Under the pieces are notes generated by a model. It did not search any database. It saw nothing but the letters and a program-made list of their open reading frames with translations, and had not been told where the DNA came from. A program made the position numbers and the translations under genes. Below, piece by piece: positions 17,552-51,060 of a stretch of DNA of 64,000 nt; the first letter of the stretch is position 1; the number at the start of each line of letters is the position of its first letter. This DNA comes from Collibacillus ludicampi (GTDB lineage: Bacteria; Bacillota; Bacilli; Tumebacillales; BOQE01). Where the stretch lies: NCBI RefSeq assembly GCF_023705585.1, contig NZ_BOQE01000001.1, positions 62,001 through 126,000 on the forward strand, written 5' to 3'.

Positions 17552-19444
17552 TCACGCCCGCTGTCGTTTACGAGGGGTGATCATTTTTACCTCTTCAACA
17601 ATGCGCTCCGCCGTTACGCCTACCGACTCCAACAATTGATTGACGGAGCCGTGTTCAATAAACCGATCCGGCAATCCGATGGGACAGAGATCGATCCCGT
17701 GAATTCCGTTTTGCGCATAAAATTCAAGGATGGCTCCCCCCATGCCTCCTGATACAACCGCTTCTTCGACAGTGACGATCCGATAGCCGCGAGCAGCGAT
17801 CTCCAGAAGTAATTCAGAATCTAACGGTTTAACAAAGCGCATGTTCACGAGCATGGGACGTATCCCTTCGGCCGCCAGAAGATCGATTGCACGTTCCGAC
17901 AGTTCGATCATACCCGGTCCCAATGCAAGTATGGCGACCGGGTCATTTCCTTCACGAAGAATCTCTGCTTTACCAATCGGAATGGTTCGAAATGCTTCAT
18001 CCATAGAAACGCCTCGCCCTTCACCGCGCGGATATCTGACCGCTACTGGTCCCGGTTGTTGAAGGGCCGTATATATCATATGTCTCAATTCGTTTTCGTC
18101 CTTGGGCATCATAATCGTCATATTCGGAACTGCGCGCAAGAACGAAATATCAAACACACCTTGATGTGTCTCACCATCCGCCCCCACAAGTCCCGCACGG
18201 TCGATAGCAAATACAACAGGCAAATTCTGGATGCAAATATCGTGAATGACCTGATCGTATGCGCGTTGCAAAAACGTCGAATAGACCGCGAAGACAGGAC
18301 GCATGCCCGCACAAGCTAATCCCGCCGCAAATGTGGCTGCATGCTGTTCCGCTATTCCCACATCAAAGAATCGGTCGGGAAATTCCACAGCAAATTTACT
18401 CAGACCGGTACCGCTTGGCATAGCCGCAGTGATCGCAACGATTCGCTCATCTTCTTTCGCGAGTGTTCTCAGCGTGTCGCCGAACACATTGCTGTATTGA
18501 GGAGCTTTAGCCACTACTTTCGGTGCTTGTCCCGTCTCAATATTGAACGGATTCACCCCGTGAAATTTATCCGGCGCCTCTTCGGCAACAGCGTAACCTT
18601 TACCTTTTTTCGTGATCACATGCAACAAAACAGGTCCTTTAACCTGTTTCGCTTGTTCAAGCATCTCAAGCAATAACGGAATGTTGTGTCCGTCGATCGG
18701 TCCGAGATAAGTAAAACCGATCTCTTCAAAGAGCATCCCGGGTACCATCAGATATTTGACCGAATCTTTCACGCGTTCCAATGCTTTCGCCACTCGGTCT
18801 CCGATGGAAGGAACCTTGTGCAAAAGATTCGCCACTTCCGATTTTACGCTCTTATAGTGAGAATGGTTTCTCAGTTTCGCCAAGTAATTCGACATCGCAC
18901 CCACATTGGGTGCGATCGACATTTCATTATCGTTCAGGACGACGATGACATCGGTTCCCATATGACCGATATGGTTCATCGCTTCAAAAGCCATACCGCC
19001 AGTCATGGCCCCATCGCCAATGACCGCGACAACATGATATTGTTCCCCTTTGAGGTCACGCGCCATCGCATATCCTGCCGCCGCAGAAATCGAGGTAGCC
19101 GCGTGACCGACATCAAACATATCATGCTCGCTTTCTTTTCGTTTTGGGAAACCGGATAATCCTTTGTATTTGCGCAAAGTGGGAAAAAGTTCCTTACGTC
19201 CCGTTAATATTTTGTGTACATACGCCTGATGGCCCACATCCCAGATCAATTTGTCTTTCGGAGAATCAAACACGTGATGGAGTGCGATCGTCAGCTCCAC
19301 GACACCCAGATTTGGGCCAAAATGACCGCCTGTTACCGAGATCGTCTCGATCAAAAACTGACGAATCTCATCAGCCAGTCGTTTTAACTCTTGGACCGAC
19401 ATCCTTTTGATATCAGAGGGGCTATTGACATTTTCCAGCAACAT
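17552..19444 (-). CDS. dxs: 1-deoxy-D-xylulose-5-phosphate synthase
   Basis: A 630-residue thiamine-diphosphate enzyme that joins pyruvate and glyceraldehyde 3-phosphate, the first step of the MEP isoprenoid pathway. The diphosphate-binding motif [18 protein letters not shown] is near residue 150, H-x-x-Y-x-H in the substrate site near [10 protein letters not shown], and the pyrimidine-binding domain has the [19 protein letters not shown] segment with its catalytic Glu. ispA lies upstream, so the isoprenoid genes are grouped. Length is normal. Confidence 0.96.
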
Positions 19445-19643
19445 GCATGTACCGCCTCTTTCAAGTTTTTAGTTATATTAACCAGATACTATATGTGTCC
19501 ATTCATTATGTAATCGCCCTTCCCTTAAAGGGCGTCCACCGTTGAATACGCTGAACATGTCACAAGGACGTTATACTATATGATATCACAGTGTTCGACA
19601 AGATCCAATGTTTGACTAACGATTTGGATGGACCGGAAATAAA

Positions 19644-34994: not shown

Positions 34995-35088
34995 CGTAAG
35001 TCCTCCTTGTCCCGAGTCTCCTTTTACAAGCTATGCAGGAAACGCGGGAGGTAGTCCCCTATTCATCGTCTTCATGTAGACAGACAGT

Positions 35089-35216
35089 GCTTGGGTGGAT
35101 GTATCGCTTTGCGCTTGGGTTCGATGAAGGTCGTCCCGCCCGGATTCTAAACATAGGTTGCGGAACGACCTTCAACTCACCTCTGCGCTGCAAAGCGATA
35201 TCATCCACCCAAAAGC
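35089..35216. repeat. Nested palindromic repeat element, copy A
   Basis: Outer arms GGGTGGATG-TATCGCTTTGC (35093-35112) and GCAAAGCGAT... (35190-35210) pair over about 20 bases with one bulge; inner arms GAAGGTCGTCCCGC (35126-35139) and GCGGAACGACCTTC (35160-35173) pair with one mismatch. Tail AAAAGCCACTCAGTT follows. The gap 34995-35417 otherwise holds only the efp terminator. Related copies lie near 45.5 and 50.6-51.0 kb. Confidence 0.75.
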
Positions 35217-35370
35217 CACTCAGTTTATTGTGTAAGCCTCAAACTTCTCTTCCCGTTCGAGAAACTTTACATCCTCTGTTGGCGCTGCTCACGGTATGTG
35301 TGCCTGTAAAGTATTTACCCCTTAACGACCAATGATGGCACCGCTTGCTGCAGGGGGCACCTAATAAAAA

Positions 35371-41329: not shown

Positions 41330-42427
41330 CTATTTCTTCCGTTTGTAAAAAGGTGTGGGAACAATGACCGCTTTCACCTTTTTATTACGGATGAGAATAT
41401 CAATCTCATTGCCGATTTGCGCATGTTCGGCCGCAACGATAGCCAAACCAATATTCTTTTTGAGGGTGGGTGAGAACGTCCCCGAGGTGACCTCACCGAT
41501 ACGTTTTCCTTCGACCTGTACTTCATAATGAGTGCGGGGAATTCCGCGTTCGATCATTTCAAAACCGACCAGTTTTCGCGGAGCTCCTTCCTCTTTTTGC
41601 TTGGCCAACACATCCCGGCCAATGAAATCTCCCTTATCCAATTTCACAAAGAATCCTAATCCTGCCTCGATAGGTGTGATCGTCTCATTAATTTCCTGGC
41701 CATAAAGAGGCAACCGCGCTTCAAACCGTAAGGTATCGCGTGCCCCTAGTCCTACGGGAACGATGCCTTCCTCCTTGCCTGCTTCTAATATCTTTTGCCA
41801 AAGGTCGATCGCCAAGTCTTTATCCACATATAGTTCAAAGCCGTCTTCTCCCGTATATCCGGTGCGCGATACGAGAGCGGGGATCCCGGCGACAGGAACG
41901 TTCTGCCTGAACCAGTAATATTTGATGTCCGTTAAATGGATATCGGTCAGTTTTTGCAAAATTTTCTCGGCCAATGGGCCTTGTAAAGCCAGTTGTGCCA
42001 CTTGAGAAGAAATGTTGCTGATTTCTACATCTCCAAACGAATGCTTCAGCATCCAATCGTAATCTTTCTCGATATTTGCTGCATTGACGACGATCAAATA
42101 ATCGTTTTCGTCCCGTTTGTAAACAAGCAGGTCGTCTACGCAACCACCGTTGTCATAGCACATGGGAGAGTAGAGCGCTTGATTGACGGAAAGCTTCGAT
42201 GCGTCGTTCGTGATCCACTTCTGGATATTCGCGAGCGCATCATTCCCCTTAACCGTGATTTCCCCCATATGGGAAACATCAAATAAACCGGCACGAGTAC
42301 GAACCGCTTCGTGCTCTTCTAAAATACTGGTGTATTGTACGGGCAGTTCCCATCCCCCAAAATCAATCGTCTTTCCCCCATACTCTTTGTAAACAGGAAA
42401 TAGGGGAGTACGTTTCAGTTCTGCCAT
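41330..42427 (-). CDS. gcvT: Glycine cleavage system T protein (aminomethyltransferase)
   Basis: Three hundred sixty-five residues. It moves the aminomethyl carbon to tetrahydrofolate and releases ammonia. Marks are [18 protein letters not shown] and the folate-site [15 protein letters not shown]. First gene of gcvT-gcvPA-gcvPB, about 110 bases after the riboswitch terminator. Confidence 0.97.
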
Positions 42428-42575: not shown

Positions 42576-42576
42576 C

Positions 42577-42785
42577 TCTGTCCTGTAACCTGAGAGTTCT
42601 CCTTCCTACATACGCTAACAGAAGTTGATCATCTTCGTAGGAAGGTTGCCCCTTTGGTGGCTGTAACAGCGCTCTCCAGAGTTACGTCCCATCACGGTAC
42701 TTTTGCCTGAGAGATTCGTGAAAGTTGGGTGGCTTCCACTTGCTCCTTCGGCGTCGCAAACGCGCTCTCTCCCGTGATGATCATC
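42577..42785 (-). ncRNA. Tandem glycine riboswitch upstream of gcvT
   Basis: Two aptamers in a row on the minus strand. Aptamer 1: GGGAGAGAGCGC, GCCGAAGGAGCAAG and AATCTCTCAGGCAAAAGTACC. Aptamer 2: TCTGGAGAGCGC, GCCACCAAAGGGGCAACC and AACTCTCAGGTTACAGGACAG. These are the conserved parts of the glycine-responsive element, which turns on the cleavage operon when glycine is high. Together with the terminator it fills most of the gap 42428-42880. Confidence 0.95.
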
Positions 42786-44644: not shown

Positions 44645-45453
44645 ACAAACAGCAACTTCAGGATTTCTGTCATCGTTACTTTGCCGCGACCGGGTGCAAC
44701 ATCCTCCATGAAGAGCCGGAGTTTATCCAGGTCGAGCTCACCATCGATATCGACAAGGAACTGACGGATCGCCCTTATTATTGGCTGTGGGTCGAAGCAA
44801 CAGGCGAAGAAGTAAAACCTACCGTACTCAATCTTGCGTTTTCTTCCAACAAACAAGTGGAGGGAATCGAATCGGCCGAACTGGTTGTCCTTGGTTCTTA
44901 CCGCTTGAATCAATTATTCGAATCGGCAAAAAAACGGGGACAGTTCACCTTGCAATACCATTCGGTTCGGGATGGTGAACTCGAACCCTACTTCGTCATC
45001 AGCGGAAAACTTTCGTTTCTGGCTGACCGTCGCTGTGATGAAATCATCTCTTACGGAATCAATATGATAAACGGCGAGCGAGTTCCTCGTTTCTTTCCGT
45101 CCATCATGCATCTCCCCATGTCGCCGCAACCACCTGAAGGATGCCACATAAAAGAGGTTCGTTTATCCTTTCGGGAGGCATGGGAAAAGTTCCTCGAAGC
45201 AACCGCAGAGAAACTCGGTGCGCATAACCATGAATGGGCGGAAGAAGCGGAAGAACATCTGAAGCAGGAGATCGAACAACTGGAAACGTATTACGGATCC
45301 TTGCTGATCGACAATGAAGAAGAGGCGACCGTCATTACTGCGGAAAAAGAGCTACGCCTGGCTGAGTTAAAATGGCGGTACCAGCCGCGCGTCGAATTCG
45401 TTCCTTTTCATATTGGGTTGATATATTTGCGAAAGCAAGATGTTATAGCTTGA
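44641..45453 (+). CDS. YqhG-like protein
   Basis: Two hundred seventy residues, with the YqhG pattern: MNKQQLQDFCHRYFAATGC at the start, the central HDRPYYWLWVE-like TDRPYYWLWVEATGEE, and a coiled C-terminus rich in glutamate. It is coupled to the helicase by the ATGA overlap and probably works with it. Function unknown. Confidence 0.82.
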   Translation: MNKQQLQDFCHRYFAATGCNILHEEPEFIQVELTIDIDKELTDRPYYWLWVEATGEEVKPTVLNLAFSSNKQVEGIESAELVVLGSYRLNQLFESAKKRGQFTLQYHSVRDGELEPYFVISGKLSFLADRRCDEIISYGINMINGERVPRFFPSIMHLPMSPQPPEGCHIKEVRLSFREAWEKFLEATAEKLGAHNHEWAEEAEEHLKQEIEQLETYYGSLLIDNEEEATVITAEKELRLAELKWRYQPRVEFVPFHIGLIYLRKQDVIA

Positions 45454-45751
45454 AAATTAGTGCTTGGGTGGGTGTATCGCTTTGCAACTTGGGTTCGGCA
45501 TAAGTATCTTGAAAACAAGTGCTTGGGTGGGTGTATCGCTTTGCGTTTGGGTTCGATGAAGGTCGTCCCGCTCGGATTCTCAACAGAAGTTGCGGAACGA
45601 CCTTCAACTCACCTCTGCGCCGCAAAGCGATTACACCCACCCAATAGCTACTTAGTTGCTTGTGGTAGCCTTAAAGCACTCTTTTCGTAAAAGAAACTAA
45701 TCATTAACTGATGGTACCTCTTGATACATGGCACTATTTTGAAAATTAGCG
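45450..45751. repeat. Nested palindromic repeat element, copy B, with a duplicated left arm
   Basis: TTGAAAATTAG lies at both ends of this gap (about 45450 and 45741). Inside, an extra copy of the left arm (TGCTTGGGTGGGTGTATCG, 45460s) precedes the full element: outer arms 45525-45544 and 45622-45642, inner arms GAAGGTCGTCCCGC/GCGGAACGACCTTC. Copy B has GGGTGGGTG/CACCCACCC where copy A has GGGTGGATG/CATCCACCC, a matched change. Confidence 0.75.
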
Positions 45752-50557: not shown

Positions 50558-50597
50558 CTATGAAAAACCTCTTTTCTACGTTGAAAATGTGTAGTTT

Positions 50598-50818
50598 GGC
50601 GGGCGTATGCTTTGCGTTCGCGCTCCGTGGAGGTCGTTTCAGCGGGTATATGCATTGCGCTTATGCTCCGTGAAGGTCGTCTCGCATGGAATCATAATCA
50701 GATGTTGCGAGACGACCTTCAAAGTCGCTATTACGCGCAATGCATATACCCTTTTACATCCGAAAGGAAGCGAGACGACCTCCAAAGTCGCTGTCTCACG
50801 CAAAGCAGTACGCCCACC
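50598..50818. repeat. Nested palindromic repeat element, copy C (one element inside another)
   Basis: Outer arms GGCGGGCGTATGCTTTGCG (50598-50616) and CGCAAAGCAGTACGCCC (50799-50815) and GGAGGTCGT/ACGACCTCC (50629-50637, 50775-50783). Inside is a second element: GGGTATATGCATTGCGC/GCGCAATGCATATACCC (50644-50660, 50735-50751), perfect over 17 bases, around GAAGGTCGTCTCGC/GCGAGACGACCTTC (50672-50685, 50707-50720), perfect over 14. Confidence 0.75.
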
Positions 50819-50872
50819 CAATGTCACTTTTCATCTTCTGATGGCGCCGTCGCTAGCGGCATGGAGGGCTAC

Positions 50873-51060
50873 GTTGAAAATTAGTTGCTTGGGTGGATGT
50901 ATCGCTTTGCGCTTGGGTTCGCTGCGCCACAAAGCGATACACCTACCCAAAAGCCACTCCGTTGCTTGTGCCAGACTTCATCCTCTTCTCCACACAAGAA
51001 ACTTTTCATTCTCAGATTCCGATTGCGGCATGAGTGGCTATCTCGAGAATATGGTGTCAA
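50873..51060. repeat. Nested palindromic repeat element, copy D (inner part deleted)
   Basis: TTGAAAATTAG leads into GGGTGGATGTATCGCTTTG (50891-50909) and its partner CAAAGCGATACACCTACCC (50930-50948) with only about 20 bases between; the inner GGTCGT hairpin is missing. The tail AAAAGCCACTCCGTTGCTTG resembles that of copies A and B. The gap 50558-51160 contains only these repeats. Confidence 0.65.

Follow-up and report, generated by a model that had tools for sequence, protein, structure and literature searches.

In our reading, to which we assign a probability of about 0.55, the palindromes described here belong to one large family of mobile hairpins, which are short, non-coding and MITE-like, are inserted strand-specifically, probably in single-stranded form at replication forks, and also enter the loops of resident copies. 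The host bacterium was placed in the order of Tumebacillus, and its genome comprises 4.09 Mb in seven contigs. The window, i.e., the whole stretch of 64,000 nucleotides that was analyzed, corresponds to C1:62001–126000, and a protein encoded in it had Tumebacillus species as its closest named relatives (74–78% identity), with one MAG at 80%. The earlier note had reported palindromic copies at 35.1, 45.5 and 50.6–51.0 kb of the window; all of them were found there, and each folded as single-stranded DNA far better than shuffled sequences (z = −8.3, −8.4, −9.3 and −5.0; −11.1 for composite C). The following features were delimited in the window:

35087–35219 (+): copy A, type I hairpin with outer stem, asymmetric internal loop, inner stem and 20-nt loop
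35220–35307 (+): 3' tail of copy A, a degenerate T module (T at C1:97307)
45449–45508 (+): type I left-end fragment (TTGAAAATTAG and left outer arm only), directly 5' of copy B
45509–45518 (+): left terminal motif of copy B (CTTGAAAACA)
45519–45651 (+): copy B, type I hairpin
45652–45736 (+): 3' tail of copy B, with the end GGCACTA and then another TTTGAAAATTAG
50581–50873 (+): outer C, a complete type III element with left end TTGAAAATG, hairpin at 50591–50827 and tail end GGGCTAC
50644–50751 (+): inner C, type II hairpin inside the loop of outer C, in the polarity of its host
50752–50769 (+): 3' linker TTTTACATCCGAAAGGAA separating the inner and outer right arms, common to many nested copies
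50874–51041 (+): copy D, a short type I element with hairpin at 50885–50957, its inner part missing, followed by a tail

Copy D stands in a head-to-tail tandem with outer C, and the arm of the left-arm-only fragment ahead of copy B lies at 45461–45500. Upstream of the minus-strand ORF at 41330–42427, the window also contained glycine riboswitch aptamers in tandem (42576–42784, minus strand), which matched Rfam RF00504 with 70.9 and 38.3 bits.

The copies had been thought to follow one shared plan. The plan is indeed common to them, but the elements fall into three types, with copies A and B belonging to type I, inner C to type II and outer C to type III. The outer elements (types I and III) consist of the left end CTAYC/TTGAAAA, an outer stem, an asymmetric internal loop, a 14-bp inner stem, a loop of ~20 nt and a 3' tail ending in GGCTAY. 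In type I (copies A, B and D), the left end CTAYC-TTGAAAANNAG is followed by the stem GTGCTTGGGTGGRTGTATCGCTTTGCGC, the inner stem GAAGGTCGTYCCGC / GCGGAACGACCTTC and the ~20-nt loop, and the tail of ~90 nt has the terminus GGCATGGNGGNCTAY. Type III has the stem GTAGTTTGGYGGGCGTATGCTTTGCG and shares its left end and tail end with type I, and type II has the stem GGGYATATGCTTTGCGC, the same inner plan as the others, no tail and a 3' linker of the form TTTTAACGTCCGAAAGGAA. The hairpins were thus as previously described, but the outer elements reach past them on both sides, through the left end and, in type I, through the long right tail. The ends TTGAAAA and GGCTAY of types I and III are not mutual inverted repeats, and the stem lies within the tailed element; the arms of type II are terminal and inverted, apart from the 3' linker. 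The extra base in the outer right arm, which had been noticed as a recurrent bulge, was present in ~37 of the 44 simple type I copies and also in type III, and was absent from type II. Truncated copies with the left arm only were seen at C1:577069, 751725, 857954 and 720431, and right-arm-only copies were apparently rarer (one noted, at 859816).

The elements are multi-copy and dispersed, as had been proposed from the copies in the window. The left arm of type I, with up to three mismatches allowed, gave 234 matches in the genome, compared with 1 for a reversed control pattern, so that the case in which the genome held no further copies, named in the earlier note as a refutation, clearly does not apply. 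In the part of the chromosome that was read as stretches (1.47 Mb, ~37%), 133 clusters were annotated, and extrapolation from random 20-kb stretches gave an estimate of 166–186 clusters per genome. Only 4 of the 88 counted clusters overlapped a predicted gene, though 75% of the DNA was called coding (by a gene predictor scripted by us). The original observation is therefore correct, and the family is larger than described.

Identical copies in unrelated surroundings indicate that the family has moved: the copies at 719.0 and 2229.4 kb agree in 191 of 191 nt and have unrelated flanks, which demonstrates recent spread, and several other pairs are 97–99% identical. In copies with unique flanks, conservation extended to CTAYC on the left and to approximately TTGAAA on the right, past which only background remained. 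Target-site duplication was not detected, the flanks of the same element agreeing at 7.0 of 12 positions vs. 6.85 for random pairs (p = 0.19); insertion took place next to a short fixed motif, the 5-nt CTAYC ahead of the left end. A free-standing attachment motif was not found beyond chance in the stretches read. The motif CTAYCTTGAAAA occurred 39 times near elements and 0 times elsewhere in these stretches; sites resembling its own tandem junction thus appear to be where the element enters. An autonomous partner with these ends was not noticed in the 1.47 Mb read, and no horizontal carrier was matched among plasmids, phages or IMG/VR. Two candidate sources of the family were rejected: IS110-type elements, three copies of which are present with ends not shared with the family, and an origin from RAYT/Y1, which is ruled against by the absence of the Y1 (IS200/IS605-type) transposase PF01797 from this genome (positive controls were detected in five genomes).

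Other repeats were met in the same stretches. A repeated segment of ~125 bp (MAQYQINLNDEILHGLF) was located ahead of the start of an apparent transposase gene at L144:12806–12931, L160:18757–18882, L181:10867–10988 and L167:4681–4821 and 19349–19471. Two CRISPR arrays with a common repeat (GTAACATTSATGACCCGAGTAACTAGGGGACTGAAAG) were found at L160:17001–17629 and L165:3589–3848, and a long tandem array with a unit of the GGCGTCCTGTAC type, which could encode a repetitive protein, at L149:3425–4042.

Nesting, which had been noted for copy C, proved to be general and to reach a depth of five. Type II elements were located almost exclusively within the loops of type I, III or II elements, and the outer units comprised 87 that were one deep, 49 two deep, 25 three deep, 3 four deep and 2 five deep; the order at C1:3627686, for example, was I< II< II< II< II< II> III> I> T. 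Nested copies shared the polarity of their host, and a single opposite-strand arm was seen within an element. The left junctions varied by copy group (TTTGA, ATTGC, TTCAGC, AAGC and others) and the right junction was constant, so that nesting must have occurred more than once; many composites were clearly copied whole, and hence the nesting events were fewer than the nested copies. Head-to-tail tandems had the junction GGCTAYC/TTGAAAA, and in 16 of the 25 tandems type III preceded type I, as in the pair formed by outer C and copy D. At C1:618300–618734, a type I composite has inserted into a type II copy, in its right arm; this is a natural occupied site for which the uninterrupted sequence is known, and the junction fits entry at CTT.

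The orientation of the clusters was assessed relative to an origin at ~1.49 Mb and a terminus at ~3.6 Mb, both inferred from GC skew, with counts taken from random stretches and from a BLAST list that was neutral to strand. In the random stretches, 42 clusters were oriented opposite to the leading strand vs. 16 with it (p = 0.0009). The ratio was 33:8 where the neighboring genes lay on the leading strand and 3 vs. 4 where they lay on the lagging strand, the latter counts being too few to decide. Between convergent genes, it was 14:3 (random stretches and BLAST list) or 9:1 (random stretches alone). The bias persists between convergent genes, where no gene sets a direction, and the direction of replication therefore explains it at least as well as transcription. 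Strand bias can alternatively result from selection relative to transcription, and sliding-clamp-binding transposases can also produce it, according to work cited in PMC6006769. The density of clusters differed between the replichores as well, with 37 clusters per 584 kb in the left and 21 per 660 kb in the right one (p = 0.012, random 20-kb stretches).

The matched changes in the two stem arms, from which the earlier note had argued that folding, as RNA or as a cruciform, is under selection, went beyond chance in both alignments, and covariation exceeded that obtained by shuffling as well as by sliding. Covariation was found in 10 of the 33 pairs of type II (59 cells, shuffled mean 15.7) and in 5 of the 38 pairs of type I (22 cells, shuffled mean 8.1), and in neither type was it reached in any of 500 shuffles. 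Single-step intermediates were G.U in 8 and A.C in 21 cases in type I, and in 12 and 17 cases, respectively, in type II (11 vs. 10 when the end pair is left out). Of these two mismatches, only G.U pairs in RNA. The fact that G.U was not commoner than A.C therefore limits the claim of a selected RNA fold, and so does template switching at imperfect palindromes, by which the arms are made to match in one step (PMC7202029). On the tree of copies, paired-change events were placed for 12 pairs on the best tree and for 1 on supported branches, and the poor resolution of this tree makes the number of independent compensatory events uncountable. The excess of A.C over G.U among the stem mismatches of type I (alignment A1) had p = 0.02, with a strand-specific deamination bias as one possible reason. 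In both types, the internal loop and inner stem were the least variable parts and the terminal loop the most variable one (mean minority fractions in type I of 0.015, 0.011 and 0.127, respectively). If template switching acted alone, one would expect an unpaired internal loop to be lost. Selection is pointed to by the conservation of the internal loop and inner stem, together with the recurrence of the plan in a distant relative with other outer-stem letters. Thus, the paired stem changes are real, selection on folding, and particularly on folding as RNA, goes beyond what they establish, and the earlier interpretation is partly supported.

That relative was revealed by the covariance-model search of related genomes that had been proposed as a check and was run with the type II model: among 199 other genomes, one was matched, from another family of the same order (E-values 6 × 10−8 and 2 × 10−6). 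It carries about six copies, mostly decayed, with the same plan; the better ones have a left flank of the form AGTGCNNGGGGTGG, and the best ones scored on one strand only. Their outer-stem letters differ (GCACGAGTACACATGC), the inner stem is GATCRTCTTGC / GCAAGACGATC, and the right strand of the internal loop is CAAACTCGC compared with CAAAGTCGC in the genome studied here. These copies are probably homologous to the family, a judgement that stops short of proof, since long hairpins will always have part of such a score in common. A third, cross-lineage model was not built, the outer arms being misaligned in MAFFT alignments A3–A5. In Rfam, which had likewise been suggested as a check, nothing was found at the gathering threshold, and relaxing the E-value to 1 brought up nothing but noise from eukaryotic hairpins and snoRNAs. 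The libraries searched, including the plasmid, phage and IMG/VR collections, thus gave no match, in agreement with the earlier note, which knew of no described family with this layout. No description of such a family was found in the open-access literature either, which is weak evidence, as most subscription papers lie outside its scope.

Ordinary MITEs, i.e., deletion derivatives of DDE-type IS elements that move in double-stranded form through a transposase still resident in the genome or since lost, would fit the elements in size, in copy number, in their palindromic form and in being intergenic. The long stems would then be terminal inverted repeats, and nesting would reflect older copies being hit by chance. 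In pithoviruses, too, intergenic regions are invaded by palindromic repeats that are MITE-like and similar in size (PMC10664404). We nevertheless consider this origin unlikely, given the undetected target-site duplication, the TTGAAAA and GGCTAY ends that are not inverted repeats, the 3' tail outside the hairpin, the single polarity of nested copies, the strand bias and the fact that no matching IS was noticed in the 1.47 Mb read, the three IS110-type copies being without these ends. On two counts, duplication and true terminal inverted repeats, the family fails to qualify as MITEs. The nested forms could instead have been produced by replication template switching and internal duplication within one locus, with no mobile insertion, and such an origin would agree with the frequent left-arm/right-arm chimeras and interior deletions and with the variable 5' and constant 3' junctions. 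It is made quite improbable by the closely similar inner elements found across different hosts and loci, and by the type II stem, which differs from the host hairpins and brings its own 3' linker in type I, II and III hosts.

We regard it as very doubtful that the family is a structured or cis-acting RNA selected for its fold and copied around the genome. The strong covariation, the conserved internal loop and inner stem and the repetition of the plan in a second lineage would be in line with this, whereas G.U intermediates were not preferred to A.C, Rfam gave no match, no constant position by gene class was seen, and the strand bias was present between convergent genes, where the element is in neither transcript. 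REP-like extragenic palindromes kept as terminators or as protectors of mRNA 3' ends would likewise be intergenic and often located shortly after gene ends, with convergent gaps over-represented, as observed; however, the TnpA-REP (Y1) gene is absent, the stem is not directly followed by a T-run, and the size and nesting far exceed those of REPs of 20–40 bp (PMC3733652), so that this explanation appears highly improbable.

Under strand-specific insertion of mobile hairpins, which we prefer, a recognition factor would read the internal loop and inner stem, and the folded single strand would, most likely, insert strand-specifically into the single-stranded lagging-strand template. CTAYC/TTGAAA-like sites and the exposed loops of resident copies would serve as landing sites, and repeated rounds of insertion would build up the nested forms. 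Arm-to-arm template switching during replication, combined with some constraint, would keep the arms matched, and the moving enzyme may have been lost from the genome. More tentatively, and with the odds against it, there may exist a class of mobile hairpins in at least two families of the order, moving as folded single-stranded DNA at forks by means of a non-Y1 enzyme, with a recognized internal loop, resident loops as landing sites and inward growth in one polarity.

Elements of the IS200/IS605 group insert beside a short preferred motif without duplication. The undetected duplications, the 5-nt motif, the strand bias, the single polarity and the landing in loops together resemble single-strand transposition of this kind, and the family thus appears to work like an IS200/IS605-type element; the resemblance is one of likeness rather than membership, the family being unclassifiable as IS200/IS605 because the genome contains no Y1 transposase. 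ERIC/IRU-type repeats have, to our knowledge, no sequence relation to this family, and we know of no multi-level self-nesting among them. They and other enterobacterial small mobile repeats are similar to it as intergenic non-autonomous repeats of ~100–170 bp that have been likened to MITEs (PMC2759123, PMC2229807). IS200/IS605 and REP/REPIN elements share hairpin DNA and a single-strand and lagging-strand logic with the family (PMC6006769, PMC3116915), whereas here the Y1 transposase is absent and the whole element forms one long stem and is nested in loops. The closest precedent for nesting is provided by the organelle palindromes of Volvox carteri, which are presumed selfish, mostly intergenic and often mutually inserted (PMC2670323). 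The Volvox units, however, average 50 nt, have loops of 3–5 nt and occur in both directions, whereas the units described here are bacterial, measure at least 110 nt and have a conserved asymmetric internal loop, defined ends, a tail and same-polarity nesting. The closest precedent for invasion at this size is that of the pithovirus M1/M2 palindromic MITEs, which are clustered palindromes of ~140 nt that invaded intergenic regions en masse (PMC10664404); they differ in having a putative TA site duplication and in alternating side by side, whereas in our case duplication was undetected and the elements lie inside loops. Quasipalindrome template switching is a known process that matches both palindrome arms in one step (PMC7202029); unlike the family, it is a mutation mechanism and no set of elements, and alone it would not keep the internal loop unpaired.

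Palindromic selfish repeats are already known, and the unusual part is their multi-level, one-polarity self-nesting in a bacterium. Algal-organelle palindromes inserting into one another were described earlier, with the mechanism unsettled. The case also carries a warning that paired changes in a repeat family alone are no proof of a selected RNA fold. A bacterial genome in which many copies can be read to their ends, the strand bias can be measured and nesting goes up to five levels offers a testable system for the spread of hairpin DNA, and one that is also suited to asking how long palindromes persist in chromosomes.
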